A stretch of DNA of 64,000 nt from Aquificaceae bacterium (GTDB lineage: Bacteria > Aquificota > Aquificia > Aquificales > Aquificaceae): assembly GCA_026981975.1 (NCBI GenBank), contig JALSHV010000011.1:1-64000 (forward strand). Reading direction: 5' to 3'. The notes under the pieces are model-generated. The model was given only the letters and a program-made list of their open reading frames with translations. It made no database searches and was not told where the DNA came from. The position numbers and the translations under genes were made by a program. How positions within the stretch are numbered: position 1 is the stretch's first letter; every line of letters starts with the position of its first letter. Below are positions 26,038 through 64,000 of the stretch, piece by piece.

Positions 26038-27048
26038 TTACACATCCAGGTTAAGCTGTTTAACACTTTCGCTCAGGTAGTCGCTTGCCATTTTGGCATA
26101 TATCTCGGTTGTTGATATGCGAGTGTGCCCCAGCAGCTCCTGTATGGCTCGTATGCTCACGCCTTTAGAAGCAAGTAAGGTTGCGAATGTGTGTCTTAGC
26201 TTATGGGGGGTGCAGTAGACGCCCGCCTTCTTTGAATACATTCTAAAGAGCTTATTTACGTTTGACGGATGAGCGTAATGAATGACTTTGTTCCTATTAA
26301 TCCTTTTTAGCTTCTCCAGCCATGGTTTTAAATCCGGATGTATTGGTATAACTCGTTCTCTATAAGTTTTTGTGTGAAAGTTGGCCTTGTTTCTGACGAT
26401 GATTATGTTTTTATCCAAATCAACATCTTCCCACCCAAGGTTTACAGCCTCTGATGCTCTCATGCCCGTGTAGAAGATTAATACAAAATAAGCCTTGTGC
26501 AGTTCATCCTCTATAACGGAGAAAAGCGCTTTTAGCTCTTGCGGTGTTAGGTATTTGAGCTTCTCGCTTTCTTTGAAAGGCTTGACCCTAGAAAATGGGT
26601 TTGTTTGCAGGTGTCCCCATTCCACAGCTTTTGAAAACATAGCCTTGGCGTGTCTTAATCTGATGTTTGCGGTTGTTTTGGAGTAACCTTTATGCTCCAC
26701 AAGAAAAAGCTTAAACCCCTCCGCCTTGGCTGTGTTGATCCTTGAGAGTCTCGTTCGGGATCCAAAGTATGCGGTTAGATTTTCGGCTGTCTTCAGATCA
26801 GTTCTGTAGGTCTCCCGAGCTTTTACTGCCTTAGACCATTCCAGAAACTTCTCCAAAAAAGCCCCCAGCTCTATATCGGATGTGAACCCGAGTCTCCCCT
26901 TGGCGAGTTCAAGCTCTATCTCCTTGAGCTTCAGCTCCGCAAGCTTCCTATCTCTTGTGCCGAGGGAGCGCCTTACCCTCTTCCCGTCAACAGTTATATA
27001 GTTGATATACCAGTAGCCGGACTTCGTGTCCCTGTATATGGTAGCCAT
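26038..27048 (-). CDS. int: Tyrosine recombinase (phage integrase)
   Basis: Catalyses site-specific integration and excision. Counting from the ATG at 27048 (336 residues) there is an N-terminal arm-binding/SAM-like region (1-155) and a catalytic domain with Arg197 (TGMRASEA), His282 and Arg285 (PHKLRH), His308 (LLGH) and the nucleophile Tyr317 (TTEIYAKM). A GTG at 27066 would overlap the -10 box TATAAT (27056-27061, minus strand), so I prefer the later ATG. That ATG lies 7 bases after the box and would give a leaderless mRNA. Confidence 0.95.
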   Translation of the reverse strand: MATIYRDTKSGYWYINYITVDGKRVRRSLGTRDRKLAELKLKEIELELAKGRLGFTSDIELGAFLEKFLEWSKAVKARETYRTDLKTAENLTAYFGSRTRLSRINTAKAEGFKLFLVEHKGYSKTTANIRLRHAKAMFSKAVEWGHLQTNPFSRVKPFKESEKLKYLTPQELKALFSVIEDELHKAYFVLIFYTGMRASEAVNLGWEDVDLDKNIIIVRNKANFHTKTYRERVIPIHPDLKPWLEKLKRINRNKVIHYAHPSNVNKLFRMYSKKAGVYCTPHKLRHTFATLLASKGVSIRAIQELLGHTRISTTEIYAKMASDYLSESVKQLNLDV

Positions 27049-27055
27049 GGTATTT

Positions 27056-27099
27056 ATTATACCCACTTGACAAGATAACGGATAAATCGTTATTATAAA
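27056..27099. promoter_or_regulatory. Divergent int/xis promoters over operator O1
   Basis: Plus strand: TTGACA (27067-27072), 18 bases, TATTAT (27091-27096). Minus strand: TATAAT (27061-27056) for int. Between them lies a perfect 19-base inverted repeat, ATAACG-N7-CGTTAT, at 27075-27093, identical to the 19-mer before the bet gene at 29.4 kb. A protein bound here would block both directions. Confidence 0.75.
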
Positions 27100-27103
27100 G
27101 ACT

Positions 27104-27316
27104 ATGGAAACTAAGTACTTATCTCCGAAAGCGTTTGCGGAGGTGGTGGGTTTGCATAAAAATACCGTTCTTCGCTACATCAAAGAAGGCAAGATAAAAG
27201 CTTACAGATTGAACAGAAAGGTTATCAGGATACCGTTGTCGGAAGCAGAATTGTTTTTAGCAGGGAAGCGAAGAAAAGGCAGGGGCAGGAAGCCTTCTAT
27301 AGATTTCCCTTTGTGA
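27104..27316 (+). CDS. Excisionase-like MerR-type helix-turn-helix protein
   Basis: 70 residues. LSPKAFAEVVGLHKNTVLRYIKEGKIKAYRLNRKV-type sequence is the excisionase/MerR winged helix (first-helix, turn, recognition helix, wing), followed by a basic tail (GKRRKGRGRKPS). It probably directs excision together with int. The ATG lies 7 bases after the -10 box with no Shine-Dalgarno, so the message is probably leaderless. It overlaps the convergent XRE gene by 20 bases. Confidence 0.8.
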   Translation: METKYLSPKAFAEVVGLHKNTVLRYIKEGKIKAYRLNRKVIRIPLSEAELFLAGKRRKGRGRKPSIDFPL

Positions 27317-27866
27317 GGGTGGATATGATGTCTTCCGCCTTTCTGCTTTTGAGGAACAAATACAGCACCTGGGCTTCTAAGGACGGAGACAGATTTAAAG
27401 TCCTTATAACACTTGCGAAGCTCCCCTTATGTTCTATAACCCTCATATTCTCAAATTTCAGATTCATAACTTTTCTTACAAACTCAGCGTTTACTTTTGC
27501 CCTCTGGGATATCTGGTATGCCTTGCCGAGTTTATCCACAATGCTCTTTAGTTTTTCCGACACATTCTCTGCTGTTATGTTCTTATCAACTTTCTTCAGC
27601 ATTCGCACCGCTTCGCCTGAGAAGGCAATTTTCAGGTATGCTGTGTACAGTTTTCTTTTTTCTTCTGTGGAAAGGTTCAGACCTCTTGCTATCTTTTCAA
27701 GGATTTGGACGTTAGGAAATCTTTTGCATGTAGTGTACTGGGCAACCGCTGCCTGCTGTATGCCGAGTTTTTCAGCAAGAGAATACGTGGTTTCATTATG
27801 CTTTTCCAAAAGCGTTGTGAGAACCTCTCCAAACTCACATCTCTTTTCCACTCTCCTTCTGCTCAT
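27297..27866 (-). CDS. XRE-family helix-turn-helix regulator
   Basis: 189 residues. The N-terminal HTH (TTYSLAEKLGIQQAAVAQYTT, about residues 26-46) is of Cro/CI type. The rest is helical with no peptidase motif, so it is not an autocleaving repressor. It has a good Shine-Dalgarno (AAGGAGGAG). It is divergent from the CII-like gene across operator O2 and is the only leftward regulator here, which suggests a lysogenic role. Confidence 0.8.
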   Translation of the reverse strand: MSRRRVEKRCEFGEVLTTLLEKHNETTYSLAEKLGIQQAAVAQYTTCKRFPNVQILEKIARGLNLSTEEKRKLYTAYLKIAFSGEAVRMLKKVDKNITAENVSEKLKSIVDKLGKAYQISQRAKVNAEFVRKVMNLKFENMRVIEHKGSFASVIRTLNLSPSLEAQVLYLFLKSRKAEDIISTLTKGNL

Positions 27867-27886
27867 ACCGCTCTCCTCCTTAAATA

Positions 27887-27905
27887 TTAACAGAATATCC
27901 GTTAT
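27887..27905. promoter_or_regulatory. Operator O2 between the divergent regulators
   Basis: TAAC-N9-GTTA (27888-27904), the same spacing as the other prophage operators but without the flanking CG steps. It lies between the XRE gene and the CII-like gene. Promoter hexamers here are weak on both strands. Confidence 0.6.
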
Positions 27906-27919
27906 TAGGAGGTGCCACT

Positions 27920-28411
27920 ATGAAGTATATTGAACACGTGCTACAAAATCCAGAAGAAAGTTTTGTAATCCTTAAAGCTCTCCACGATACCGTTTTCAAA
28001 GGTGAAGTTCCCGCTAAGAAGGTGGCTCATGAGCTTGGGGTTGACCTTGGTAACTTGTCTACCATGTGTTCACCCAGAAGCCTTGAAAAGGGTAAGCCCA
28101 AGTTTCCTCTTCTGTATGTCCCGAACCTGACAGAGTTAACGGGCAGGACTGATGTGGTTGAGGTTTTATGTATGCTTTGTGGCGGAGTCTTTGTAAAGGT
28201 TTCTGATATAAACGGAGAACCCTTGAAAGACTCCCTTGTAGAAGTCAAAAATCTTCTCTATCAAGTAAGCGACCTTATAGATACTTACCTGAAAGCTATT
28301 GAAGATGGCTCCATTACCGATAAAGAGTTCTCGGAAATTGAAGGTAAGTGCTTAGAGCTCGTTTCTAAAGTTCTCTCTTTGAGAGAGTGTGCCAATATTT
28401 TGGCGTATTGA
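27920..28411 (+). CDS. CII-like phage regulatory protein
   Basis: 163 residues resembling the phage CII/CP76 group: an N-terminal HTH (VPAKKVAHELGVDLGNLSTMCSPR) followed by a helical region with the pattern LTELTGRTDVVEVLCMLCGGVFVKV. Members control lysogeny decisions. It has a strong Shine-Dalgarno (AGGAGGT). Its end carries the promoter of the next gene. Confidence 0.65.
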   Translation: MKYIEHVLQNPEESFVILKALHDTVFKGEVPAKKVAHELGVDLGNLSTMCSPRSLEKGKPKFPLLYVPNLTELTGRTDVVEVLCMLCGGVFVKVSDINGEPLKDSLVEVKNLLYQVSDLIDTYLKAIEDGSITDKEFSEIEGKCLELVSKVLSLRECANILAY

Positions 28412-28435
28412 CAATTTATTTTCAAGGGGTAATAT
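28408..28435 (+). promoter_or_regulatory. Promoter of the S24 repressor
   Basis: TTGACA (28408-28413), 16 bases, TAATAT (28430-28435), overlapping the stop of the CII-like gene. The predicted transcription start is only a few bases before the GTG start at 28446. Confidence 0.55.
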
Positions 28436-28445
28436 TCTAATTCTG

Positions 28446-29048
28446 GTGAGGGAGATAGTTGAAAGAGTAAGGCTTATTGCAAGGGAGGTAGGCTCTACGA
28501 AGCTCGCTAAGATAAGCGGTGTTCAAAGATATACCATTCAGAGATTTATAGCGGGAAATAACATAACTGTGGAGAAATTTCTTCTTATATACGAGGCTCT
28601 TGAAAAGCTCGGTTACTCCTTCAGAAAAGAAGTTATAGAGTATGAACCCGTCATTCTTGGCGAACGTGTGGATGTTGTGGTAAAGCCGGTTTACGGCAGG
28701 ATAGGAGCCGGGGATGGGGTGAATGTTGAAGATATCGTCGGGCAGGTCCCTGTTCCTGTTGATTTCGGTAGACCGAAATATCTCTATTTCAAAGTTAGAG
28801 GAAATTCCATGTCGCCCGCAATAATGGACGGTGCTGTAGTAGGAATAGACACCGAGGATAAGGTCGTAGAAAACGGAAAAATCTATGTCCTTTCTCTTAA
28901 GGATGAGGGGAATGTAGTTAAGAAAGTTTACAGGAATGGTAAACATCTCATTCTCGAAAGTATGAACTCCTCTTTTCCTCCTGTTATAAAGAGGGGCGAC
29001 GAGGTCTGGGTAGTAGGCAGGGTCAGGCTTGTTATAAACCAAATTTAG
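28446..29048 (+). CDS. LexA/CI-type repressor with S24 peptidase domain
   Basis: 200 residues from the GTG at 28446. An N-terminal HTH (STKLAKISGVQRYTIQRFI) is followed by an S24 self-cleavage domain with the Ser in FKVRGNSMSPAIMDGAVV and the Lys in GNVVKKVYRNG. A cleavage-site-like Ala-Gly lies in GRIGAGDGV. Such repressors are inactivated through RecA after DNA damage. A longer in-frame reading to 28389 would run through the promoter, so I prefer the GTG, which would be read from an almost leaderless mRNA. Confidence 0.85.
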   Translation: MREIVERVRLIAREVGSTKLAKISGVQRYTIQRFIAGNNITVEKFLLIYEALEKLGYSFRKEVIEYEPVILGERVDVVVKPVYGRIGAGDGVNVEDIVGQVPVPVDFGRPKYLYFKVRGNSMSPAIMDGAVVGIDTEDKVVENGKIYVLSLKDEGNVVKKVYRNGKHLILESMNSSFPPVIKRGDEVWVVGRVRLVINQI

Positions 29049-29064
29049 TTGGAGGAGATAGACC

Positions 29065-29403: not shown

Positions 29404-29434
29404 ATTATCTAACAAACTAAAGGAGGTGGAAGTT

Positions 29435-30460
29435 ATGAAGGCTATTGAAAGGCTGGAAACGAACGGAAGCATAAGGGAGGAGGAGCTTCAGAGGTTTATT
29501 GAGCTCACTCTTGGACCGCAACTCAAAGGCTTCCCAAAAGAGCAGATTTTAGCCGCTTTACAGGTAGCTAAGGTGAATAATCTCAATCCATGGAAGCGAG
29601 AGGTGTATTTTATTCCCTACACATTACGGAACAAGAAGGGGGAGATAATAGACAGGAAGATAGAGATCGTAACTTCTTACACGGTTTATATATCAAGAGC
29701 TTCTGCGTCTGGGTTGCTGAACGGATTTAAGGTAGATGTAGACTCCAAAGGACAGTGGGCAAAAGTAACTATATACAGGAAGAACTGGGACCACCCCTTT
29801 GAGTGGATTGTCTTTGCTGATGAGGTCAAAAGAGACACTAAAACGTGGGAGCAGATGCCCAAGTTTATGCTGAGAAAGGTTGCTATCTCGCAGGCGTTCA
29901 GGTTAGCATTCCCCGAAGTGATAGCCGGGCTTCCCTATACAAGGGAAGAGCTTCTTGGTATTGACAATGACAGCAGCGGTAATACTTCAGATAATAACGT
30001 TTTGAACGTGATTACAGAAAGCGAAGATATCAACACAGAAAGCGAAGATACCAGCAAGGTTAGGTTTGTGGAAAGTCTTTTCAATAAATATCCGGAGCTC
30101 GCCAAGGAAGTTATCCAGAAATATGTGGCTGGAGAAGACGTTGTTGTAGAAAGTGTTGAAGATGCTTATAGTATATGGGAAGAAAGCAAAGGTATAGCCA
30201 ACGATCTTCTTCCTGACTTTGCCACTGGCAAACAGAGGAAAAAAATCAAAGTTGAAGTAAACAAGCTCGGCTGGGAAAAAGAAACATACAGGACCTTTCT
30301 AAAGAATACATATGGAGTCAGTTCGTCCTTAATCCTCTCTAAGGAGGAAGCTTCTGACTGTATAGAAAGACTTACAAACCTTCAGACACTTAAAAAGGCT
30401 TCCGAAGCAGAACCCCCCGAAGAGTTTGAACAGTTTGAGAATTGCGAAGCAGGTCAGTGA
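29435..30460 (+). CDS. bet: Bet/RecT-family single-strand annealing protein
   Basis: Phage recombination annealase. The N-terminal half matches the Bet family (KVNNLNPWKREVYFIPY, IVTSYTVYISRASASGLLNGF, MLRKVAISQAFRLAFPEVIAGL). The C-terminal domain, ATGKQRKKIKVEVNKLGW..YGVSS..LSKEEASDCIE, is a small helical module often joined to such proteins. I chose ATG 29435 (341 residues), 8 bases after AAAGGAGG. No partner exonuclease of lambda-Exo type is next to it. Confidence 0.88.
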   Translation: MKAIERLETNGSIREEELQRFIELTLGPQLKGFPKEQILAALQVAKVNNLNPWKREVYFIPYTLRNKKGEIIDRKIEIVTSYTVYISRASASGLLNGFKVDVDSKGQWAKVTIYRKNWDHPFEWIVFADEVKRDTKTWEQMPKFMLRKVAISQAFRLAFPEVIAGLPYTREELLGIDNDSSGNTSDNNVLNVITESEDINTESEDTSKVRFVESLFNKYPELAKEVIQKYVAGEDVVVESVEDAYSIWEESKGIANDLLPDFATGKQRKKIKVEVNKLGWEKETYRTFLKNTYGVSSSLILSKEEASDCIERLTNLQTLKKASEAEPPEEFEQFENCEAGQ

Positions 30461-30471
30461 GGAGTGCGTAA

Positions 30472-32133
30472 ATGTTTGCGGAGGTAAGAGGGGAAGAAAT
30501 ACACTGCTACAACGCTTACGATGTTAAGGACGTGCTTAAATCGTACGGTTTCAGGTTCAACCCCGAGACCAAGTCCTGGTACGCTCCCTATACGGAGGAG
30601 CACAGGAGCATAGTGGAAAGTCTCGGGTTCAGGATTTATTCCAACGGAAACAAGAAGCTCAAGCCAGCTCTTGAACAAGCTTTGAAAGAGATGTATCCGA
30701 CAGCTCTTGATCATCAGATCCTTGCTGCCGGACTCGCTATTCAGGAGAAAAGCTTTCTTATAGGGGATGAACCCGGAGTGGGGAAGACCTACACCGCTAT
30801 TATCTACCTTGACTATCTGCTCTACACAGGAAAGATAGACTACGGTCTCGTTATATGCCCCGCTTCTATAAAGCACCAGTGGAGGTCGGAGTTCTCCAAG
30901 TGGGTTAACAGTTCCGTAATAGTTCTGGAAGGAGACAGGCACCAGAGGAGGAAGCAGTTCACCCTTGTAAAGCATCCGAGTTTCATACCTGTTTTTGTCG
31001 TCAACTTTGAACTTTTGCTTTCCAAGGATGTTATCTCCACTTTTAAGGAGCTTCCTCCCAACAGGTTTGCCATCGTGATAGATGAGGCTTCAAGGCTTAA
31101 GAACAGAGGTTCCAAAACGTATCAAGCTATCAAGAAGTTAACTAAAAGAACCCAGTGGAAGCTTGCACTAACGGGGACACCCATAGAGAACTCTCTTGTT
31201 GAGTTCTTTAACATAGCTAAACTTCTGAGAGAAGATTTTATGACCGTTGAGGAGTTTGAGGAAAGGCACCTTGAATACTTCATGCTCAACCTGTCTAATG
31301 TCCCCTTTCCTATCAAAAAAGTCAAGCGGTTCAAAAATTTGAGAGAGTTCGTCCTTCGTATCAGCCCTTTTTACATCAGGAGAAAGAAAAGCGACGTCAA
31401 GGACATGCCCGAGCTTATAAGGTATGTAAGGGAGATTCCCCAGAGTAATCTTCAGGCTGAGTTGGAGCGATTCATAGTTTCCCTGGCTGAAGACAAGTCG
31501 GGAGTACAGGCTTTGTCCGCCCTGACCCTCTTGAGAGAAGTGTGCGATGATCCGAGGCTCCTTTTAGAATCCGATTCTCCTTCAGCTCTTGAGGTGGTAG
31601 GGAAGTTCGGGGAAAAGATCCGGGCTATAAAGTCCGATCCTCCCAAGTTCGGTGAGCTTGAGGACATACTTGAAACTCACAAAGGACAGAAAGTTCTTGT
31701 ATTTACAGATTTCGCAAAGATGGCTAAGAGGATAGCCAGGAAATTCGGTGCTGTCTCTGTAACCGGAGATCTGCCCGCAAATGTAAAAGCTTCAAGGATA
31801 GGAAGGTTCAAAACGGATCCCGAGACCAATCTTCTCGTTGCTACGGATACCATGAGCTACGGGGTATCTCTTGATGAGGTTAATGTGGTGGTTCACTTTG
31901 ATGTTCCATGGAGTCTGGGAAAGGTTATCCAGAGAACAGACAGGATCTATAGGGTTTCGTCCACAAAAACTAAATACGTCTATTTCCTCGTCAGCGAAGG
32001 GATAGAAAAGAAAGTCTGGGAAGTCCTCTCTTCTAAGGAAGATCTTTTCAGGAAGGTAGTTGACGGGGAAATTCTGGACAGGGATCTTCAGCAAGAGATC
32101 CTTAAGGCTGTTTTCAGGAGGGTCAGAGTATGA
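30472..32133 (+). CDS. SNF2-type superfamily 2 helicase
   Basis: 553 residues. After a HARP-like N terminus (SYGFRFNPETKSWYAPYTEEH) come Walker A GDEPGVGKTYTA (about 98-109), VIDEASRLKN (DExx), LTGTPIENS (motif III) and a helicase C domain ending in VPWSLGKVIQRTDRIYRV (motif VI, QRxxRxxR-like). Roles in phage replication or recombination fork remodelling are known for this group. It lies between bet and the replication genes, and the ATGA overlap with the next gene implies coupling. Confidence 0.88.
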   Translation: MFAEVRGEEIHCYNAYDVKDVLKSYGFRFNPETKSWYAPYTEEHRSIVESLGFRIYSNGNKKLKPALEQALKEMYPTALDHQILAAGLAIQEKSFLIGDEPGVGKTYTAIIYLDYLLYTGKIDYGLVICPASIKHQWRSEFSKWVNSSVIVLEGDRHQRRKQFTLVKHPSFIPVFVVNFELLLSKDVISTFKELPPNRFAIVIDEASRLKNRGSKTYQAIKKLTKRTQWKLALTGTPIENSLVEFFNIAKLLREDFMTVEEFEERHLEYFMLNLSNVPFPIKKVKRFKNLREFVLRISPFYIRRKKSDVKDMPELIRYVREIPQSNLQAELERFIVSLAEDKSGVQALSALTLLREVCDDPRLLLESDSPSALEVVGKFGEKIRAIKSDPPKFGELEDILETHKGQKVLVFTDFAKMAKRIARKFGAVSVTGDLPANVKASRIGRFKTDPETNLLVATDTMSYGVSLDEVNVVVHFDVPWSLGKVIQRTDRIYRVSSTKTKYVYFLVSEGIEKKVWEVLSSKEDLFRKVVDGEILDRDLQQEILKAVFRRVRV

Positions 32134-33940: not shown

Positions 33941-34111
33941 ATGAGAGACAGGAATGCTGGGAAGGTAACGCTTTTCCATGTGTGTATGGGTGGTGCTGAG
34001 CATAGAGCCTTCCGGTTTTTTGATGACAAAGCTCTGAACCTTTTAGTAGCAGCGTCCATGCTTGAGAGCGAAACGAGATGTATGGTAGCAGGGCGTGGGA
34101 GTATGCTCTAA
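33941..34111 (+). pseudogene. N-terminal fragment of the TGT/DpdA-like gene
   Basis: 56 codons beginning with KVTLFHVCMGGAEHRAF, which looks like the start of a transglycosylase-like barrel (a beta strand followed by a gene-family HxxxG/GxEH-type turn). The frame ends at 34111, just where the next reading frame, one base out of phase, takes over. Adding one base in the overlap (34066-34108) would join the two into one protein of about 280 residues. It may be a frameshift mutation, a sequence error or two separately translated pieces. Confidence 0.5.
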
Positions 34112-34776
34112 ATCCTGAAAAGGTCCTTGAAATCCAGCTGCAGATAGATCCTGATGTGATAGCTCACGTTGATATACCCTGCGAGATAGAAATACTCCGT
34201 AGACTCGGAACGAATAGACCGACTGCTATCTCCCAGACTGTCTACAATGCTCTCTGGATAGTTGAGAAGAAAGAGTCTGGAGACGAAAGATTAAAGAACC
34301 GAATAGTTGTTATTGGAGTTCAGGGATATACGAAGGAAGATTACGGGCGTTGCTTAGAGCAGTATCGGAATTTCGGCTTTTTTGATCTGGATCCTGCAAA
34401 GTACTGGTTTGCGATTGGTAGCGTTTGTATGAGAAAGCCTCCTGAGCTTTACAGGATAGTTGAATTTGTGAGGGCAAGCATTCCTGATGAGTATCATGTC
34501 CACTGCTATGGTATAGCTAACCCCGTGTGGGTTCTGGAGCTCGGGAGATTTGGAGTTAATTCTGTTGACAGTGCAACAGGGACCTATGCGGCTGGAATGT
34601 TTCGTTTTATAGATGTAGGAGGGCAACGGAAAATACTCAAACTGAAAAGGAAGAACAAGTATATGTTCGCTGCTCTTACGGCTTTTAATTGGATGAGTCT
34701 TGAGATCCAGATAGAGGATGGAGTACAGGTTGAACAACAGCACCTTTTTGCAGATTGTGAGGTGTGCTGGAGATGA
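34078..34776 (+). CDS. tRNA-guanine-transglycosylase-like (DpdA-like) protein, main part
   Basis: 232 residues of a TGT-superfamily barrel: VLEIQLQIDPDVIAHVDIPCEI, VVIGVQGYTKEDYGRCLEQYRNFGF, WFAIGSVCMRKPP, HVHCYGIANPVWVLEL and GVNSVDSATGTY. The Asp of VDSAT sits where TGT has its nucleophile. In phages this family (DpdA) puts 7-deazaguanines into DNA. The N-terminal strand and the DSGA-type motif are missing from this frame and seem to lie in the upstream fragment. No queC/D/E genes are in the window. It overlaps dnaB as ATGA. Confidence 0.65.
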   Translation: MYGSRAWEYALNPEKVLEIQLQIDPDVIAHVDIPCEIEILRRLGTNRPTAISQTVYNALWIVEKKESGDERLKNRIVVIGVQGYTKEDYGRCLEQYRNFGFFDLDPAKYWFAIGSVCMRKPPELYRIVEFVRASIPDEYHVHCYGIANPVWVLELGRFGVNSVDSATGTYAAGMFRFIDVGGQRKILKLKRKNKYMFAALTAFNWMSLEIQIEDGVQVEQQHLFADCEVCWR

Positions 34777-37617: not shown

Positions 37618-37731
37618 ATGCTTGCAACACGAAAGGCGGAAGGCTTTTGGATGGTAAAGAGTGGAACGATATGCCTTTCAATGCGGGGGTTGTTGGATGA
37701 TAGTGGTGTTGGTCAGCGGCGGAAAGGATAG
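37618..37731 (+). CDS. Possible 37-residue leader ORF
   Basis: An ATG directly after the previous stop, 6 bases behind AGGAGG, opens a 37-codon frame that runs into the next gene in another phase. The signals are good but the product is unremarkable. It may serve to couple translation into the PAPS-reductase-like gene, whose own start has a poor ribosome site. Confidence 0.3.
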   Translation: MLATRKAEGFWMVKSGTICLSMRGLLDDSGVGQRRKG

Positions 37732-52638: not shown

Positions 52639-52665
52639 AGTCAATAGCGTATTGTATGTTATTAA
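52633..52665 (+). promoter_or_regulatory. Late promoter L2 with imperfect operator
   Basis: TTGTAA (52633-52638), 16 bases, TATGTT (52655-52660); the operator AATAGC-N9-GTTATT starts at 52643. It overlaps the terminase stop and precedes the portal gene. Confidence 0.65.
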
Positions 52666-52676
52666 ATGGGGGTCTC

Positions 52677-54668: not shown

Positions 54669-54701
54669 TTGCAGGTTCAATCACATTTAATATGTTATTA
54701 T
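54669..54701 (+). promoter_or_regulatory. Late promoter L3 with imperfect operator
   Basis: TTGCAG (54669-54674), 16 bases, TATGTT (54691-54696); operator AATCAC-N9-GTTATT starts at 54679. It drives the scaffold, protease and capsid genes. Confidence 0.7.
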
Positions 54702-54715
54702 TAGGAGGTGTTCAG

Positions 54716-55204
54716 ATGAAAGAACATGTTCAGGCTGTAGTGGACTCTTTTCTCAAGGAAGGGAGGATAGATTCGGAAGCCCTTTCTGAAGCCATCAGGG
54801 TGGGTGTAAGGAAGAGAAAAAGGAAGGTAGATCCCGGACAGAGGAGGAAGTGGAAAGAGTACTACAGAAAGAACAGAGCGAAGATCCTGAGAAGGGTCAA
54901 GCAGTGGGCGAGGAAGAACAAGGCGGTCCTCAAGCAGTATGCGAAGAAGTACAGGCAGATGTTCGGAAAGAAGGAGGGAGTTGATCTTGTGGAGGACGTA
55001 GACATGCTCAGGGACAGGGTAGAGGAGTTGATCTCTTTTGTGGAGGAGATAGAGGCGGACGGTACGGAAGAACTCCTTTCTACACTTGAAGAGCTGGCGG
55101 AGATGCTTGATGAGGTTGAAGAGCTTGACGAGGAAGAGGTTGGAGAGATAGAGGAGATGTTGGACGAGATAGAGAAAGCGATACTTGCGGTTGAGGAGGA
55201 TTGA
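54716..55204 (+). CDS. Acidic/basic coiled-coil protein, possible capsid assembly core protein
   Basis: 162 residues from ATG 54716 behind AGGAGGTG. The first 90 are strongly basic (KKNKAVLKQYAKKYRQMFG). The last 70 are extremely acidic (EELDEEEVGEIEEMLDEIEK) and would coil. Such bipolar charged proteins are common prohead cores. It sits directly before the protease. Function inferred from position and composition. Confidence 0.55.
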   Translation: MKEHVQAVVDSFLKEGRIDSEALSEAIRVGVRKRKRKVDPGQRRKWKEYYRKNRAKILRRVKQWARKNKAVLKQYAKKYRQMFGKKEGVDLVEDVDMLRDRVEELISFVEEIEADGTEELLSTLEELAEMLDEVEELDEEEVGEIEEMLDEIEKAILAVEED

Positions 55205-55206
55205 TC

Positions 55207-56244
55207 ATGGGTGTTCTTGTAGAGACCACGTACCTCCAGCCGGAGGTTATCAAAGAAAACAAGGGCGGGAAAGAGGTTGTAAGGTTCAGGGGGGTTTTCC
55301 AGAGGGCGGACGTGGTCAATGAGAACGGCAGGAGGTACCCGAGGAAAGTTCTTGAGAAGGCTATTAAGGAATTTGAGAAAAAGATTAAAGAAGGAAGGGC
55401 TGTAGGTACTCTTGAACACCCCCTTGATGGCATCACGAGGCTTGATGCTATCAGCCACAAGATAGTCAGTGTGGAGCTGAAGGAGAACGGCGAGGTTGTG
55501 GGAGAGTTTGAGGTTCTGGATACTTCTAAGGGGAAGGATCTCAGAGCTCTTCTTGAAGCGGGGGTAAAGATAGGGATTAGTTCCAGGGGGTTCGGTTCAA
55601 CCAAGAAGATCAGGGACGGCGATAAGGAGATAGAAGAGGTGCAGGAAGACTTCAGGTTTGAGGCTTTTGACGTTGTATACAACCCTTCTACGCCCGGCGG
55701 ATGGGTGCTTCTGAAGGAGTCACTGAACGAAGCCGGGCTTGTCAGGAAGGAAGATGTTGAGAAGCTCGTTGAAGAACTTATAGAGGCTTTCGCGGAGAAG
55801 TTTGAGGAGTTTGCGCGGGCTGTCATTGAGGAGGTACCCGGGGTTGTGGAGGGGGAACTGGAAAACAGACCTGACATCAAAGCTGTTGTGGCTGTTGAGG
55901 CTATAGCGAGGATACTTGCTCCTATAGTCCCTGAAATAGCGGAGTGGATAGCGGAGGCAAACTGTGAGGAAAAGGAGAAGCTTGAGGAAGAACTGAAGAG
56001 GAGGGATGAAGAAATTAGGAGGCTGACACTTGAGAATTACAAGTACCAGAAGATTAGCGAATCCGCCTATCCGGATGAGTTAAAGGAAGTTCTTTCTGAA
56101 GCCAGAACCATAGAGGAAGTTGATAGGCTTGTGGAGGACTTTAAGAGAAGGAAGAGGGTAAGGGTGACTGCAGAAGAGAAAAAAGAAGAAAAGAAACCTC
56201 TCTTTAGTAAGCTCAGAAAATTCCATGTTGGAGGTGGACAGTAA
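55207..56244 (+). CDS. Prohead protease, T4 gp21-like, fused to scaffold-like tail
   Basis: 345 residues from ATG 55207. The protease domain shows AVGTLEHPLDGITRLDAISHKI with His71, and VKIGISSRGFG with the nucleophile Ser125/126 region, the S80-type pattern. From about 165 the chain is helical and acidic, ending in a charged tail (RKRVRVTAEEKKEEKK), like a scaffold. In T4 the protease and core are separate genes, so this fusion is a difference. Confidence 0.82.
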   Translation: MGVLVETTYLQPEVIKENKGGKEVVRFRGVFQRADVVNENGRRYPRKVLEKAIKEFEKKIKEGRAVGTLEHPLDGITRLDAISHKIVSVELKENGEVVGEFEVLDTSKGKDLRALLEAGVKIGISSRGFGSTKKIRDGDKEIEEVQEDFRFEAFDVVYNPSTPGGWVLLKESLNEAGLVRKEDVEKLVEELIEAFAEKFEEFARAVIEEVPGVVEGELENRPDIKAVVAVEAIARILAPIVPEIAEWIAEANCEEKEKLEEELKRRDEEIRRLTLENYKYQKISESAYPDELKEVLSEARTIEEVDRLVEDFKRRKRVRVTAEEKKEEKKPLFSKLRKFHVGGGQ

Positions 56245-57689
56245 TGCTTATGACGAGACCTGTTTTCAACTCTTACGAGGATAAGGTTGAGTATGGACTG
56301 AGGGTGGTGGAGGAGAACCTGCCGTTTTTTGAGGGACTGGCGGAGATACACCCAAGGTTTAAGAGGGTGCTTGAGAGCAAGGACAGGTACAAGCTTGCTC
56401 TTCTCGGATTCATATTTGACAACACGGTCGGGAGGATGTCCGAGGTCCTGAGGGAATCCCCGGAGAGCATTAAGAAGATACTGGTAGAAGGGAGAAGCGT
56501 TCTTTCCGAGGCTACTTCCGTAAACGACATAGCCGGGTATGATGCGAACTATCTCGGGGTTGTGTCCTTCCTGTTCCCGACCACCCTTGCTTCTGAAATA
56601 GTGAACATACAGCCCCTTGAAGGTCCTACGGGGGTTATCTTTTACAAGAGGTACATCACCGAGCAGGCGAAGGGTAAGGTTGCGGCGGGAACGGAGCTGA
56701 CGAGGAGCGACCAGACAAGCCGGGGAGCTGCTGAGCAGGGTATAGCCGGAGATCTTGTAGTTGACGAGAAAATAGGAACCGGGGACGGAATAAATACTTC
56801 CTTTAACGGTACACTTGCGTGGACACCCGTTGTTCCATCTACCGTTACCATAACTGACGGAACTCAGATAATCACCGACGACGGAAACGGCGGGCTTACG
56901 GGAGATGGAAGCGGGACGATAAACTACGAAACCGGAGCCGTTGCTGTAACCTTCAACACAGCTCCTGCTAACGGTGCAAACATAACTGTTACCTACAGGT
57001 ATGAGAACCACGGTAACAAATTCATGACCGTGAAGATGAAGCTGGAGAAGAAAACCGTTTCCGCTCAGTCCAGGATTCTCGGTTTTCAGTGGGAGGCTGA
57101 AGCTCAGCAGGATCTTCTTGCATACCACCAGATAGCTATAGAGGACGATGTTGCTACCACCCTTGTTGAAGAAGTCGCTACAGAGATAGACTCTCATGTA
57201 CTTTCCGACTTGTATGCACTGGCTAATGCGGGTGTCTATAAGGAGATATGGGACTCCGCTCCTCCCGCCGGTACAGATCCCGTTCTTTACAGGCAGACGA
57301 TAGCCTTTGCCATCAGGAAGGTTTACACGAAGATAATAGATGCCATAGGCAGGAAACCTGCTAATTCTACCGCCTTTGCTGTTTGTGGCGCTGATGCGTG
57401 GCATTACGTTCAGACGAGTGGTAAGCTGGAAAACGGCAAGCTCGGCGGGGACATAAATGTCTACTATTCTCCTCTCGTTCCTGCAAACAGCATAATCGTT
57501 GGACTCAAGGGTAACGATGCGGTAACCGGTGGGTATGTATACGCTCCTTACAGGCTGGAGGTTTCTCCTGCTGTTCCTGCTGTTGTTAACGGACAGACAC
57601 ATCCTTTCCTCTACGTGAAAGGGATACTCAGCAGAGACGCCTTTGTTGTGGTGAATCCCAAGTTCTACGGCCTCGTTACGGTCACCTGA
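56244..57689 (+). CDS. Major capsid protein, T4 gp23-like, with inserted Ig-like domain
   Basis: 481 residues, HK97 fold by family. Recognisable parts include the N-terminal propeptide region and the spine helix (SIKKILVEGRSVLSEA), FLFPTTLASEIVNIQPLEGPTGVIFY and the late FLYVKGILSRDAFVVVNPKFYGLVT. LSE|A at 87-90 fits the gp21-type cleavage rule (I/L-x-E|A). Residues about 177-254 are an insertion that reads as a bacterial Ig-like module (GDGSGTINYETGAVAVTFN). The next gene starts 16 bases downstream. Confidence 0.88.
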   Translation: MLMTRPVFNSYEDKVEYGLRVVEENLPFFEGLAEIHPRFKRVLESKDRYKLALLGFIFDNTVGRMSEVLRESPESIKKILVEGRSVLSEATSVNDIAGYDANYLGVVSFLFPTTLASEIVNIQPLEGPTGVIFYKRYITEQAKGKVAAGTELTRSDQTSRGAAEQGIAGDLVVDEKIGTGDGINTSFNGTLAWTPVVPSTVTITDGTQIITDDGNGGLTGDGSGTINYETGAVAVTFNTAPANGANITVTYRYENHGNKFMTVKMKLEKKTVSAQSRILGFQWEAEAQQDLLAYHQIAIEDDVATTLVEEVATEIDSHVLSDLYALANAGVYKEIWDSAPPAGTDPVLYRQTIAFAIRKVYTKIIDAIGRKPANSTAFAVCGADAWHYVQTSGKLENGKLGGDINVYYSPLVPANSIIVGLKGNDAVTGGYVYAPYRLEVSPAVPAVVNGQTHPFLYVKGILSRDAFVVVNPKFYGLVTVT

Positions 57690-58130: not shown

Positions 58131-58303
58131 ATACCATCAAGGTTAAAAACGTTACCCAGACAACGATAGGTGTGCCCGACGGAAAGGGGGGCACGATAAC
58201 CATAGCTCCCGGGGAGGAGAAGGAGATACCGACCAAGTACCTTGACTACCTGAAGGGAAGCGTGGCTCCAGTGAAGGGTAAACAGGGCGGAAGTAAGAAA
58301 TGA
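58127..58303 (+). CDS. Small SH3-like late protein, copy 1
   Basis: 58 codons missed by longer gene limits. IKVKNVTQTTIGVPDG..TIAPGEEKEIPTKYLDYLKG has the strand-turn-strand pattern of small phage structural proteins. It resembles the 52-codon gene at 61504 (KVKNVSGQAIPTSKG..PGQEVELSKEEANRLMK). Good AGGAGG. ATGA overlaps on both sides. Confidence 0.55.
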   Translation: MNTIKVKNVTQTTIGVPDGKGGTITIAPGEEKEIPTKYLDYLKGSVAPVKGKQGGSKK

Positions 58304-58974
58304 CAAGAGATGACCTTCGGTTGTTTTTACGCAGGTATCTTGGGGATGGGGTTGTAGGTGTTGAGCTGACAGACCAGCATCTTGACACAGCCATAGACTC
58401 AGCTCTTCACTGGCTTTCCGGGTATATAAAGAAAGAGGGCGCTGTTACCCTGAGCGGGAGGGTGGGTCAGAGCAAGTTTGATCTTTCCGGACTTCCCTTG
58501 CACGCAAAGGTTGTGGACGTTAGAAGAGCTCCTTCCCCCTCCCTCTCCTCCCCCTTTTCTCCCTTTTTTTATGAAGACATTTCCGATGTTAGCGATTACG
58601 CTATAAGGGCTAACTATGCGGAGAGTGTTAGGAAGCTTCTGGGAAAGGATCCCGTCTGGAAGTATGAACCACCTTTCCTCTATATAGACCCTCCATCTTC
58701 CGGAAATGAGACCATAAGGGTTGTGTACGTTATCCCTTTTACGGACCCCTCGGAAGTGCCGTATGACCTTCTTCACCCTTTTGTGGAGTACACCAAGGCT
58801 TGTGCTAAGGAAATCCTTGCAAGGATCAGGGGGAAGTACAGAGGAGTGCCTGCTCCTGAGGGAACCGTAGAGCTTGATTATTCCGATCTGCTTTCGGAGG
58901 CACAGCAGGAGAAGGAGACAGCAACGCAGGAACTCCTGAGAAGAATTCCCTCCGCCGGGTTTGCTGTTGGATAA
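58300..58974 (+). CDS. Neck or head-completion protein
   Basis: 224 residues. The N-terminal helices (DDLRLFLRRYLGDGVVGVELTDQHLDTAIDSALHWLSGYIK) and the central beta region with EPPFLYIDPPSSGNETIRVVYVIPF match connector-type proteins that fix the tail to the portal. Position (after capsid, before tail completion) supports it. Exact T4 counterpart not certain. Confidence 0.55.
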   Translation: MTRDDLRLFLRRYLGDGVVGVELTDQHLDTAIDSALHWLSGYIKKEGAVTLSGRVGQSKFDLSGLPLHAKVVDVRRAPSPSLSSPFSPFFYEDISDVSDYAIRANYAESVRKLLGKDPVWKYEPPFLYIDPPSSGNETIRVVYVIPFTDPSEVPYDLLHPFVEYTKACAKEILARIRGKYRGVPAPEGTVELDYSDLLSEAQQEKETATQELLRRIPSAGFAVG

Positions 58975-59722: not shown

Positions 59723-59924
59723 TGTGGTGGACGGTTCCCTGGGGGTGATTAAGCTGAAGACTTCCGAGGCACAGGTTTGTTCCCTCGGTATTGACAGGTT
59801 CAGGGAAAACCTTTACAGGATGATTGACAGAGCTGTTGAGGAGATAGAGAAGAACCTCAGGGACAGCGAGGCTACTTACATAAACAAAACTTTGCGTGTT
59901 GGGAAGAAAATCTTAAATGATTAA
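59706..59924 (+). CDS. Unknown small late protein
   Basis: 72 residues, one strand then helices (RFRENLYRMIDRAVEEIEKNL). Starts behind AAGGAGG inside the previous gene. Not recognised. Confidence 0.45.
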   Translation: MKLQVSVVDGSLGVIKLKTSEAQVCSLGIDRFRENLYRMIDRAVEEIEKNLRDSEATYINKTLRVGKKILND

Positions 59925-60318
59925 CGATTACAACCCTTCTCCCTACATAGCTGAGTACTTTTCTCTTTATTACAGACCTGTCAACGTGTATCCCCTTGAC
60001 AGGACAACCACTCAGGTGGACAGTCTATACGGAGAGGCTAAAGACAGAGTTTATACCACACCTATAACAATTCCTATCTACTTCAGATTTGACGTGGATG
60101 AGAAAACCCTTACAAAGTTCGGTATAGACAGGAAGGAGGATCTTTTTGTGGTTATAAGTTATGCCTTAGTACAGAATGCGGGATGGGACCCACAGCCCGG
60201 AGACAGGGTAGAAATAGACGGCGAGCACTTTGAGATAACTTTCCTGAAGCCTCAGTATGACTTTAATGGCAGTGTGTATCTTTACGTTGGGACAGCCAAG
60301 AGATGGCAATCAGGATAA
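59917..60318 (+). CDS. Tail-connector-type protein
   Basis: 133 residues. Beta-rich with TPITIPIYFRFDVDEKTLTKFGI, DLFVVISYALVQNAGWDPQPGDRVEIDGEHFEITFLKPQ, a pattern of neck or head-tail joining proteins. It overlaps its neighbours by 8 and 16 bases. Function inferred from place and style. Confidence 0.5.
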   Translation: MINDYNPSPYIAEYFSLYYRPVNVYPLDRTTTQVDSLYGEAKDRVYTTPITIPIYFRFDVDEKTLTKFGIDRKEDLFVVISYALVQNAGWDPQPGDRVEIDGEHFEITFLKPQYDFNGSVYLYVGTAKRWQSG

Positions 60319-60890
60319 AACCTATCGGGAAGGTTTACGAGCCTAAGGCGGTGGAAAAGGTTGTCAGAGAGTATATTGAGAGGGGACTTGAAGAGATAGC
60401 GCAAGCGCTTGCGGAGGATGTTACTAAAAGAGTTCAGCCTGACTGGCTCAGGAACAGGGTCAGGCTTTTAATGAAGAGGGCTGTTGTTCTGGAACAAGGA
60501 TTCCAGAGGTTTATGGCTGAACGCATAGCGGAGCACTTAAAGAATGGGATTTTCAGGCAGAAATGGAAATCAAGGTGGAAGCGTTTGTCTCCGAAATATT
60601 TGAAGTGGAAAAAGAGGAAGGGTTTGGATACCCGCATTCTTCTTGCTCATCACTATTACATCAGCTCTATAACTGTTTACCGTTCGGGTGGTGACTGGGT
60701 GGTGGGGGTAAAACCTTTTCAGAAACACCCGGCAACTGGGGTGCGGATGGAAAAGCTTGCAAGGTTTCTGGAGTTCGGCACATCTCGTATGCCTCCGAGA
60801 CCTCACTGGAGACCCGCCCTTGAGGAAGTAAGAAGAAACTCGGGAAGATTTTTGAGGAGATACTTGAGAGATGTTAAGGCTTTTAGATGA
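60303..60890 (+). CDS. Tail completion protein, HK97 gp10-like
   Basis: 195 residues. LARFLEFGTSRMPPRPHWRPALEEVRR is the diagnostic end-loop of the HK97 gp10/virion-morphogenesis group (FxEFGT...MPPRP). Central basic part KWKSRWKRLSPKYLKWKKRKG. It helps to finish the head-tail joint. Confidence 0.78.
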   Translation: MAIRIKPIGKVYEPKAVEKVVREYIERGLEEIAQALAEDVTKRVQPDWLRNRVRLLMKRAVVLEQGFQRFMAERIAEHLKNGIFRQKWKSRWKRLSPKYLKWKKRKGLDTRILLAHHYYISSITVYRSGGDWVVGVKPFQKHPATGVRMEKLARFLEFGTSRMPPRPHWRPALEEVRRNSGRFLRRYLRDVKAFR

Positions 60891-61461
60891 GATAACCGAA
60901 CACCTCTTAAGCGGTTTTGTGGTGGAGAGGAACGGACAGTATGTGAATGTGAGCAGGATAGTGTATGCAACTCCTGAAAGAGCTTTTTCTGGAGATGATA
61001 CTAAGAGGATAGATCTTCCCGTTGTGTCCTTTTACAGGGTTTCTCAAGAGTTCGGGACTGAATTTCACAGCTTTGGTCTCCAGGACACAGGAGTTTTCTA
61101 CAGAGATCCGGCGAACTATCAGACCACTCTATCAGGCGTGCGTTACAAACTGCTCCCTGTAAGGGTTTTTTACCAGGTAGATTTCTGGGTCAAGTTTATG
61201 GACGACATGCAACTTTTGCAGACCCAGCTCCTTCACTACTTCAGACCTGTTCTGAGGAGGTATATGAAACTTCCATCGGGCGGTGGTGTTCCTCTGGATT
61301 ACGTCCTTCAGGGCATGGTAGATAATTCAGATCTGGAACCCGGTGAGGATGAAAGGGTGTTGAGGTTTTCAGCGGATCTCAGTGTAGAAGGGTACTTGCC
61401 CCTGGGGGATTTTACTATCAAGCTTATCAGGGACACAGTGATTATTCTGGAGAGCCTTTGA
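60871..61461 (+). CDS. Tail terminator-like late protein
   Basis: 196 residues, alpha/beta, with LPVVSFYRVSQEFGTEFHSFGL and VDFWVKFMDDMQLLQTQLLHYF. Position directly after the gp10-like protein and before the sheath suggests a tail-terminator role. It is the last gene before promoter L4. Weak evidence from sequence alone. Confidence 0.5.
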   Translation: MLRLLDEITEHLLSGFVVERNGQYVNVSRIVYATPERAFSGDDTKRIDLPVVSFYRVSQEFGTEFHSFGLQDTGVFYRDPANYQTTLSGVRYKLLPVRVFYQVDFWVKFMDDMQLLQTQLLHYFRPVLRRYMKLPSGGGVPLDYVLQGMVDNSDLEPGEDERVLRFSADLSVEGYLPLGDFTIKLIRDTVIILESL

Positions 61462-61491
61462 CAAATATGATTACATTCAATATGTTATTAT
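61458..61491 (+). promoter_or_regulatory. Late promoter L4 with imperfect operator
   Basis: TTGACA (61458-61463), 17 bases, TATGTT (61481-61486): the best late promoter. The operator GATTAC-N9-GTTATT starts at 61469. It drives the tail genes. Confidence 0.8.
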
Positions 61492-61503
61492 TGGAGGGTT
61501 TCT

Positions 61504-61662: not shown

Positions 61663-61690
61663 TCTTTATTCTGGAAGGAGGTGATTGATC

Positions 61691-63163
61691 ATGCCTGTGT
61701 TTGTATCGCCCGGTGCTTATACGGTTGAGGAGGATTTTAGTTTATATGCCCCGCAGGTAGCTACTTCCATATGTGCTATGGTCGGGTGGTCGCCTAAGGG
61801 CAGGACCGATCAGCCTGTTTTTGTTACCAACGTCCAGCAACTTATAGATACGTTCGGGAAACCTTCTCCTGACACGTTGCTGTTACACTCTGCTATAGTC
61901 TTTCTTGAATTCGGGAACAAGCTCTGGATAAAGAGGGTAGTGGGTGCAAATGCCACTAAAGCGAGTGTAACCATAGACGACGGGGCGTCTACACCCACGA
62001 ACGTTCTTCTTGTGACCGCTGTCGGCGAGGGGGCTTACTACAATGATGTGGCGGTTCAGATAGCTTCTACCGATCCTCTCATAGGAACCGGGTTTGACCT
62101 GATAGTGAAAGACAGGGGAGAGGTTGTAGAGGTGTTCAAAAACCTGACTACCGACCCCAACGACAAGGACAGATATGTGGGGAACATAAGAAGCGACTAC
62201 ATAGAGGTAACTGTATTGGACAACACAAAAACTCCTAAGAACGGAACTTTTCAGCTTGCGGGAGGAGACGATGACCTTACCAACCTCACATCCGCTCAGA
62301 TAATTCAGGGATTGCGAGCTTTTCTTTCCGAGAATTATGACATCAATATCCTGTGCGCTCCCGGGTGGTCTGATGCAAGCGTGATAAATGAAGGCATCTT
62401 CATATGTGAACAGAGGGCGGACTGCATGTTCATAGCAGACCCGCCTATAGGGCTTACTCCCCAAGAGGTAGTGGACTGGCATAACGGAGCTGGGGTATGG
62501 GCTGGACAGCACCAGGCTTTCAATAGCTCTTACGGTACTCTTTACTGGCCGTGGCTGAAAGTATATGACTCCTTCAACGGCAGGGATATATGGCTTCCTC
62601 CTTCGGGGTTCGTAGCCGGTGTGTATGCTTACAACGATACGATCGCTTATCCCTGGTTTGCCCCTGCAGGGTTTGTAAGGGGCAAGCTTGTAAGACCCCT
62701 TGCCCTTGAATACAACCCTACACAAGGAGAAAGGGATCTTCTCTACGGAACGCCCAATGCGGTTAATCCCATAGTCAACTTCAGGGGGGACGGGATAGTC
62801 GTGTGGGGGCAAAGAACCCTGCAGAGGAAGCCTTCAGCCACAGATAGGGTGAACGTGAGAAGGCTTCTTCTGTATGCGAGGAAGGTAATAGCTGTATCTA
62901 CCAAGTACATGACCTTTGAGCCTAACGACCCTATAACGTGGAGAAGATGGGTAAATCTCGTTCAGCCCTTCTTTGACGACATCAAGAGCAAGAGAGGGGT
63001 TTACGACTTCAGGGTAGTGTGCGATGAGACCACCAACACGCCCCAGACCATAGACAGGAATGAGATGCACGGCTACATACTGCTCAAACCCACCAAAACA
63101 GCGGAAGTGATAGTGAACCACTTCAGGATACTTAGCACAGGAGCGAACTTTGATGAAATCTAA
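61691..63163 (+). CDS. Contractile tail sheath protein, T4 gp18-like
   Basis: 490 residues from ATG 61691. The start VFVSPGAYTVEEDFS is the sheath N-terminal pattern, with VGWSPKGRTDQPVFVTNVQQLIDTFGKP next, then the body, and the C-terminal EPNDPITWRRWVNLVQPFFDDIKSKRGVYDFRVVCDETTNTPQTIDRNEMHGYILLKPTKTAEVIVNHF-type region (conserved sheath end). A contractile tail makes this a myovirus. Strong GGAGG. Confidence 0.93.
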   Translation: MPVFVSPGAYTVEEDFSLYAPQVATSICAMVGWSPKGRTDQPVFVTNVQQLIDTFGKPSPDTLLLHSAIVFLEFGNKLWIKRVVGANATKASVTIDDGASTPTNVLLVTAVGEGAYYNDVAVQIASTDPLIGTGFDLIVKDRGEVVEVFKNLTTDPNDKDRYVGNIRSDYIEVTVLDNTKTPKNGTFQLAGGDDDLTNLTSAQIIQGLRAFLSENYDINILCAPGWSDASVINEGIFICEQRADCMFIADPPIGLTPQEVVDWHNGAGVWAGQHQAFNSSYGTLYWPWLKVYDSFNGRDIWLPPSGFVAGVYAYNDTIAYPWFAPAGFVRGKLVRPLALEYNPTQGERDLLYGTPNAVNPIVNFRGDGIVVWGQRTLQRKPSATDRVNVRRLLLYARKVIAVSTKYMTFEPNDPITWRRWVNLVQPFFDDIKSKRGVYDFRVVCDETTNTPQTIDRNEMHGYILLKPTKTAEVIVNHFRILSTGANFDEI

Positions 63164-63177
63164 GGGAGGTGTTAGCC

Positions 63178-63711
63178 ATGCCTTTTAGTCCTCCTGAACA
63201 ACCGCAGGTTAATCTTTTGAGACCGTCGCTTGCGAGGATCAGAAAGTATCTTTACCTTGTGCATTTTTATCCCAACGCCACACTTAAAGGAATGGTCAAC
63301 GGACTTGAGGATGTAATTCATTTTTCTGCGTCAAGAGTCTCTATAGACAGCGGTAGCTTTGACGAGGTAACGGTTGATTTCGTAAATTCAAGGGAGAGTA
63401 AGCCCGGAAAATATACTCCCGGACAGGTGACTTTAACTGTAAAGGCTGACGAGGAGGGGAAAGTGCTGGATCTGATAGACACATGGAAGAGACTTATATA
63501 TGACCCTGAAACGGGAGCCATGTTTCACCCACAGCACTACGAGTGCTCTATGGAGATAGAGTTCATTACTCTAAGCGGGCAACCTGTTACGAGGTATAAG
63601 TTTGTTGGTTTGTGGTTACAGACCCCGCCAACTATAGATCTTGATTACTCCGCAAGTGAGGATATTGAGCTGGATCTGACCATGAAGTATCGCTATTACG
63701 TGAAAGCCTAA
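63178..63711 (+). CDS. Tail tube protein, T4 gp19-like
   Basis: 177 residues from ATG 63178. The sequence FSASRVSIDSGSFDEVTVDFVNSRESKPGKYTPGQVTLTVK and EFITLSGQPVTRYKFVGLWLQTPPTIDLDYSASEDIELDLTMKYRYY matches the tail-tube fold. It directly follows the sheath, the usual order. Confidence 0.9.
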   Translation: MPFSPPEQPQVNLLRPSLARIRKYLYLVHFYPNATLKGMVNGLEDVIHFSASRVSIDSGSFDEVTVDFVNSRESKPGKYTPGQVTLTVKADEEGKVLDLIDTWKRLIYDPETGAMFHPQHYECSMEIEFITLSGQPVTRYKFVGLWLQTPPTIDLDYSASEDIELDLTMKYRYYVKA

Positions 63712-63723
63712 AAGGAGAAGAAG

Positions 63724-64000
63724 ATGGGGAAAGCGGTATTTATGCCCGTTGAGCCTCAGTCTCAGGTAGTTGAACTGCCATCCAGGGGGATTCCTTACCG
63801 TTGGCGAGATGGTAAGGTTTCCATAAGGCCTATGACCGCACGGGAGGAAAAGCTTATAGCTACCGCAAATGAAAATACCTACATGTCGGTTATAGACAGG
63901 GTTATAGGTAACTGTCTGAAGGAACCGCAGATCGACCCGGAAGAACTTACCGAAGGGGACAGGAGCTTTATTCTTCTGTGGTTGAGGATTAACTCCTACT
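63724..64000 (+). CDS. T4-like baseplate protein, partial
   Basis: At least 92 residues, cut by the window end. VELPSRGIPYRWRDGKVSIRPMTAREEKLIATANE, then VIGNCLKEPQIDPEELTEGDRSFILLWLRI, matches the T4 baseplate hub (gp26-type) family that often follows the tube. It starts 12 bases after the tube stop behind AAAGGAG. The 3' end is outside. Confidence 0.7.
   Translation, partial: MGKAVFMPVEPQSQVVELPSRGIPYRWRDGKVSIRPMTAREEKLIATANENTYMSVIDRVIGNCLKEPQIDPEELTEGDRSFILLWLRINSY

Follow-up and report, generated by a model that had tools for sequence, protein, structure and literature searches.

A T4-type head in a putative temperate phage integrated at a tRNA gene of an Aquificaceae genome

The window analysed here, the first 64,000 nucleotides of contig JALSHV010000011.1 (C11; 73,923 bp) from an Aquificaceae bacterium assembly (1.61 Mb, 29 contigs, 99.94% complete), carries the left part of an element that we interpret, with a probability of roughly 0.87, as an integrated temperate phage with a contractile tail, at least 53.7 kb long, which its tyrosine integrase placed in the 3' half of a tRNA-Arg(TCT) gene. 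This prophage would represent a family-level lineage of Aquificota phages that combines T4-superfamily head and packaging genes with a P2/Mu-like baseplate, small-phage replication genes and a switch of CII-like, S24 and XRE regulators. The initial annotation had proposed a temperate phage with a T4-type virion module under a lambda-like lysogeny switch. The tRNA-adjacent integrase, excisionase, and XRE and S24 repressors that it listed are all present (PF00589, PF12728, HTH_3 and PF00717, next to tRNA-Arg at 25822-25898), as are the gp20-, gp21-, gp23-, gp18- and gp19-like proteins of the late module (Portal_T4, Peptidase_S77, Gp23, sheath and tube).

The left end of the prophage is marked by three features:

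25822-25898 (+): tRNA-Arg(TCT), the attachment gene, whole copy kept at the left end (ARAGORN)
25850-25895 (+): attL core, 46 bp, identical to attR, which lies beyond the window at C17:5602-5647 (sequence match)
26003-26020 (+): TGTCAGAAAAATGTCAGA, 18 bp, presumed integrase arm site, second copy at C17:5518-5535 (repeat; no match of 18 bp in any of 300 shuffles)

The tRNA-Pro and tRNA-Arg(TCT) genes both lie within 25733-25898, and a 401-bp query around them yielded one exact 46-bp repeat of the 3' half of tRNA-Arg(TCT), on a second contig, C17 (identity re-checked). A tRNA scan detected no full tRNA at C17:5602-5647, which fits the expectation for attR; the duplicate of the tRNA 3' end, sought beyond the window in view of the proposed temperate phage, is thus present. 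Both copies of the 18-bp repeat sit just internal to the prophage ends, a pattern of presumed integrase arm sites. Because the 46-bp duplication and the 18-bp repeat occur at both ends, C11 and C17 can be joined into one prophage. It was previously delimited as 26038-64000 but starts at the att core, at 25850, runs to C11:73923 and continues through C17:1-5647, so that the window covers the left ~38 kb. The known length, 48,074 + 5,647 = 53,721 bp, is a lower bound to which a small assembly gap has to be added, probably of about 0.6 kb judging by the fibre genes and by the gene order of a related Thermovibrio prophage (see below). On C11 the prophage has a GC content of 45.6% and on C17 one of 42.9%, while the host stands at 38-39%. 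Past attR lie host genes that, from their translations, are the leuS beta subunit, pilins, glnE and nuo.

Next to attL is a compact set of integration and lysogeny genes:

26038-27066 (-): tyrosine integrase (PF00589 5.9e-32; phrog_1; also found in 4 of the 5 other genomes with the capsid)
27104-27316 (+): excisionase-type HTH protein, HTH_17 (PF12728 1.1e-9; phrog_66, excisionase)
27297-27866 (-): XRE/Cro-type regulator (HTH_3 7.4e-5)
27920-28411 (+): CII-like regulator (PF06892 2.6e-6; phrog_101)
28389-29048 (+): S24 CI/LexA-type repressor (PF00717 4e-20; phrog_4)

The S24 protein has an Ala-Gly pair N-terminal of the peptidase domain, which, together with the S24 fold, makes self-cleavage upon DNA damage plausible. 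The genes of the proposed switch (XRE, CII-like, S24) are in place, and its lambda-like operation is presumed from them. An open reading frame at 27313-27933 (+) is probably spurious, antisense to the XRE gene.

The head, neck and tail genes occupy the right part of the window:

50833-52638 (+): terminase large subunit, TerL (phrog_2 2.3e-10; 72% identity to the copy in G011, a genome of the window's own genus)
52656-53837 (+): portal, T4 gp20 family (PF07230, Portal_T4, 2.5e-53; phrog_213)
53827-54636 (+): minor head protein with a C-terminal CxxxCRC motif, MuF-like by motif alone (sequence; position conserved in relatives; no Pfam match)
54692-55204 (+): charged helical protein at the gp67/gp68 position (position and composition; conserved)
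55201-56244 (+): prohead protease gp21 (S77) with an extra C-terminal, presumed scaffold region (PF03420 9e-28; phrog_207)
56244-57689 (+): major capsid protein gp23 (PF07068 1.2e-31; model best matches T4 gp23, Z 18.7)
58300-58974 (+): head-tail adaptor Ad2, T4 gp13 type (phrog_211 5.1e-11)
59917-60318 (+): head closure Hc2, T4 gp14 type (phrog_679 2.7e-5)
60303-60890 (+): neck/tail completion protein, Ne1 type (phrog_5 7.7e-9)
60871-61461 (+): possible gp15-type tail terminator (PF16724 E 0.017, below cut-off; position; conserved)
61685-63163 (+): tail sheath (phrog_23 1.1e-101; PF04984)
63169-63711 (+): tail tube, gp19 type (phrog_45 1.4e-15)
63724-64000 (+): 5' part of a T4_baseplate-family hub gene that ends at C11:64599 (PF12322 7.9e-21; phrog_150)

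The order portal, CxxxCRC-end protein, charged helical protein, long protease (with ~170 additional C-terminal residues) and capsid parallels 20-67-68-21-22-23 in the T4 record. The capsid protein is less than 60% identical to every phage record, with about 23-29% identity among the matches listed. Its AlphaFold model, built from a 62-sequence alignment (pLDDT 79; an earlier model from 7 sequences, pLDDT 55, was poor and was discarded), best matches T4 gp23, with Z 18.7 and 2.6 A over 243 residues at 24% identity, followed by P1 gp23 at Z 16.7. One could argue that this resemblance to T4 amounts to the general HK97 fold plus a common myophage tail and that the label 'T4-type' is an over-reading: many HK97-fold proteins reach Z 14-16, the P1 capsid is the top match of the model when Foldseek hits are ranked by E-value, and the sheath, tube and baseplate families are widely shared. 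We consider this very unlikely. The gp20, gp21 and gp23 proteins occur together, in T4 order, with family-level matches that all lie well above the Pfam curated cut-offs; PHROGs adds, with moderate scores, the neck proteins Ad2 and Hc2, names that the T4 record gives to gp13 and gp14; and profile comparison of the capsid ranks Colly (Molycolviridae; 1e-37) and T4 (3e-22) far above P1 (4e-9). Separately, capsid residues ~175-255 (window 56780-57005) form an inserted beta-rich domain, and similar sequences are found in Ig-like domain-containing tail proteins as well as in the protease-capsid fusion of a ~41-kb phage.

The proposed T4-type virion holds from the head and neck to the tail sheath and tube, all of the T4 type as judged from their families, but not for the baseplate, which is of the simple P2/Mu kind. 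On C11 beyond the window, up to 73,923, the hub is followed by a tape measure protein (765 aa), a LysM protein, gpD-like and gp5-like proteins, gp25 (Pfam match 1.1e-18), Baseplate_J, tail protein I and a fibre; the complex baseplate of T4 gp7-gp12 was not recognised, with gp25, Baseplate_J, tail protein I, LysM and gpD-like proteins present instead. No T4 replication or late-transcription gene (gp43, gp41, gp44/62, gp55 and others) was detected among the open reading frames scanned, a set that took in part of the small ones; DnaB, RecT, SNF2 and a clamp of bacterial type occur in their place. On C17:1-5600, a fibre gene is accompanied by genes for a GH24 lysozyme, a protein of holin size, a Doc toxin and an exonuclease-family protein, as well as by overlapping genes that resemble Rz/Rz1 in position and form; the fibre, lysis and Doc genes reach up to attR. 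The Doc/Fic toxin gene at the attR end has a small upstream partner, a candidate antitoxin (L010:4879-5549), and the pair may be an addiction module carried as a moron.

Related prophages were identified in other Aquificota. Of 136 Aquificota genomes, 6 contain the Gp23 family and 7 gave strong matches to Portal_T4. The earlier assignment of the host to Aquificales stands at the level of the phylum; one genome of the host's class that also has the module finds its match in a contig recorded as Thermovibrio. Specifically, G116 matches contig WFYG01000008.1 of a Thermovibrio metagenome-assembled genome (MAG), and G121 matches a Desulfurobacterium MAG. The Thermovibrio prophage is complete within a single 237-kb contig, with a length of 47.4 kb and 58-bp att repeats at 94858 and 142306, at tRNA-Leu(CAG); its integrase adjoins attR, and the late module between the repeats is collinear with that of the window except for the tape-measure gene, which is moved to the right end. 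In all three Desulfurobacteriaceae-type members (L032:1691-4357, equivalent to G116:C8:136691-139357; L162; L163), the tape-measure gene lies beside the integration end rather than the tube genes. In G114, tRNA-Cys and the integrase lie on different contigs, and a 49-bp att repeat at tRNA-Cys recurs beside the integrase; in G011, the integrase is located 140 bp from tRNA-Cys, with xis, CII, S24, RecT and SNF2 collinear. Altogether, a related integrase (>230 bits) was found in 6 genomes, 5 of them capsid-positive, and 5 of the 6 capsid genomes have it, a co-occurrence with a chance P of about 1e-7 (the genomes are not fully independent). The seven member capsids, including one from a metagenome virus contig, constitute a clade with 100/100 support that excludes all lytic T4-type phages sampled; some outer branches are long and their placement is unsure.

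These comparisons bear on two further explanations. The late and lysogeny modules could be two adjacent elements, that is, tandem prophages or a misassembled lytic phage genome, a possibility that draws on the division of the prophage between two contigs. It is largely refuted and, in our estimate, has almost no remaining likelihood: the window runs from the integrase to the tail genes unbroken, the Thermovibrio prophage shows the same union in one contig with a single att pair, and G011, G114 and G121 carry a related integrase. Nor does the late module belong to a non-integrated remnant, the case named in the initial annotation: it is contiguous with the integration module, and the union recurs in related prophages.

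The element could also be decayed or domesticated, being a prophage remnant, a tailocin or a gene transfer agent from which no infectious phage is made. Tail-only and head-only derivatives are generally common. However, the element retains modules for integration, replication, packaging, head, neck, tail and lysis, all of them with open frames. Compared with G011, nine genes contain no stop codons, and the ratio of nonsynonymous to synonymous substitution rates (dN/dS) is 0.04-0.07 for the capsid, sheath and terminase, with dS near saturation and several genes not scorable; the frames are intact and under purifying selection. Moreover, other genomes carry this gene set at other tRNA genes, and this implies phages that move and infect. 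Decay is thus improbable. CRISPR spacers of family relatives gave only short, weak matches to the late module, none within repeat arrays. Some observations weigh against an integrated temperate phage with T4-type packaging: C11 and C17 are separate contigs, with no read bridging the gap; in genus relatives, where the empty attB site was searched with the joined flanks, tRNA-Arg is not adjacent to leuS-beta, so that host rearrangement is indistinguishable from integration there; and the match of TerL to T4-type (gp17) families is weak (phrog_2 2.3e-10). We nevertheless retain the temperate phage as the best explanation.

The combination of a T4-type head with lysogeny, singled out as unusual from the outset, was looked for in other records. 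The integrase domain PF00589 was found in none of 49 T4-type records, which comprised 39 IMG/VR entries whose capsid is T4-type (many of them fragments) together with T4, RM378, SP-15, LIS04, Mel-JY01, immuto, Colly, TM39, S-SSM7 and LR756511. It is present in 7 of 50 further records picked by terminase or protease, and those of the seven near 40-60 kb have the S77 protease in a long frame. The integrase-bearing IMG/VR contigs L326, L307, L315, L328 and L337 (~40-45 kb) encode the S77 protease within such a long open frame, which in L326 continues into a capsid-like part. These ~41-kb contigs were not counted as further temperate T4-type phages; L326, the one studied, has an HK97-type terminase and a non-T4 capsid. 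A 200-kb contig, IMGVR_UViG_3300033407_000001 (L237), encodes T4-type terminase, portal, protease and capsid together with a 205-aa tyrosine recombinase and is a candidate only as regards temperate life.

Among known phages, Molycolviridae (Maribacter phages Molly and Colly), Kleczkowskaviridae (Rhizobium phage RHph_TM39) and Thornevirus (SP-15, LIS04) share with the prophage the block of TerL, portal, small head proteins, protease and gp23. The protease is annotated as joined to the scaffold in Colly and TM39, and that of LIS04 is much longer than the T4 protease; Colly, with the nearest named capsid by profile, also has a similar order of sheath, tube and tape measure. In contrast to the prophage, these phages have genomes of 124-222 kb, a tyrosine integrase was not found in any of them, and capsid identity is below 30% among the matches listed. 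No integrase is listed for Molly (PMC8776804). Straboviridae, including T4, share the gp20, gp21, gp23, gp13 and gp14 families, sheath and tube, but no gp22, gp24, whiskers or gp7-gp12 baseplate were recognised in the prophage, which, at 54 kb, is a third of the size of T4 (169 kb) and has an integrase, excisionase and repressors. Given that the replication set, lysogeny genes and baseplate all differ, the prophage does not belong to the T4 group proper.

P1 (Punavirus) resembles the prophage in being temperate, with a contractile tail, a simple baseplate, a Doc toxin and a DnaB-type helicase, and its capsid is reported to add an insertion domain like that of T4 to the HK97 fold (PMC12810830). 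P1 is a temperate precedent for the T4-like capsid fold, but as a plasmid prophage with RepA/ParA/ParB/parS, whereas the Aquificota element is integrated at a chromosomal tRNA gene and only a ParB-like nuclease-family gene was seen in it. The ~41-kb contigs (IMG/VR 2627853997_000001 and others, Virus Rctr41k), along with the Brevibacillus plasmid NZ_CP150492.1, have an S77 protease joined to the capsid protein and a weakly T4-like portal. The ~41-kb contigs carry an integrase, as the prophage does, but differ in the HK97-type terminase (phrog_38) and in a capsid part that is not gp23 by hidden Markov model search (in the one studied), so that only fragments of the T4-type head are common; the gp21-type protease appears to have reached temperate phages whose head modules are otherwise different. 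In the same phylum, Pyroviruses, including the Thermocrinis Octopus Spring virus, are predicted to be purely lytic, without lysogeny genes and with PolA-type replication (PMC7689252).

Further genes of the window, between the lysogeny and late modules, are implicated in replication and, possibly, DNA modification:

29426-30460 (+): RecT recombinase (PF03837 4.1e-25)
30472-32133 (+): SNF2-type helicase (PF00176 1.2e-33)
34078-34776 (+): TGT/DpdA-like protein, possible 7-deazaguanine DNA modification (PF01702 5.7e-11)
34764-36134 (+): DnaB replicative helicase (PF03796 3e-56)
37661-38524 (+): PAPS reductase-like protein (PF01507 9.6e-31)
39707-40996 (+): DNA polymerase III beta clamp (DnaN) homologue (PF02768 2.8e-17; phrog_947)
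45510-46886 (+): DAM-like and phage GNAT-like fusion (PF22559 6e-32, PF22555 3.3e-26)
47106-48053 (+): ParB-like nuclease-family protein (phrog_7405 1.6e-55, phrog_620)

Drawing on what is known of these families, the path from repression through induction to particle release can be outlined. The XRE and S24 proteins would maintain lysogeny; DNA damage would trigger S24 self-cleavage and then Xis-assisted excision between the 46-bp att cores; and the DNA would be replicated with DnaB, the phage beta clamp and RecT. The gp21 protease would mature the gp23 prohead, with the scaffold probably fused to the protease, gp13/14/15-like proteins would join the head to the contractile tail, and the cell would be lysed by a lambda-type set of holin, GH24 lysozyme and spanin. 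Apart from this outline, the TGT/DpdA-like, PAPS reductase-like, SWIM zinc finger, DAM-like and GNAT fusion, ParB-like and two similar acyltransferase-like proteins (window 34078-34776, 37661-38524 and 44824-49700) are candidate members of a putative DNA base-modification cassette; in the Thermovibrio prophage, TGT-like, DUF488-like and radical-SAM-like genes were noticed by eye.

T4-type heads have been taken to indicate large phages with a strictly lytic life, and gp23 and gp20 serve as markers of these in environmental surveys. Judging from the gene content reported here, such heads also belong to chromosome-resident dormant viruses, with relatives at tRNA genes in three more Aquificota genomes. 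No description of such prophages was found in the open-access literature, and we regard the chromosome-integrating T4-type lineage as new with the reservation that the survey by family covered Aquificota and the literature covered was open-access. Tentatively, and with somewhat less than even confidence, we suggest that, within the T4 superfamily, the Aquificota prophages (~47-54 kb) make up an ancient temperate branch that integrates into chromosomes and has a T4-type head on a small, simple tail. If so, this branch would share its head with the large lytic T4-type phages, and the association of that head with lysogeny would be stable and of long standing, not the product of a recent swap. 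With an integrated lineage in at least two Aquificota families, a gp23 or gp20 marker alone does not imply a lytic life. If active, the prophage could provide an inducible, small T4-type system from a thermophile in which head assembly with a presumed fused protease-scaffold could be studied. It would also bring a group of temperate phages with contractile tails to a phylum from which, as of 2020, no isolated virus was known to the authors of the Pyrovirus study (PMC7689252).

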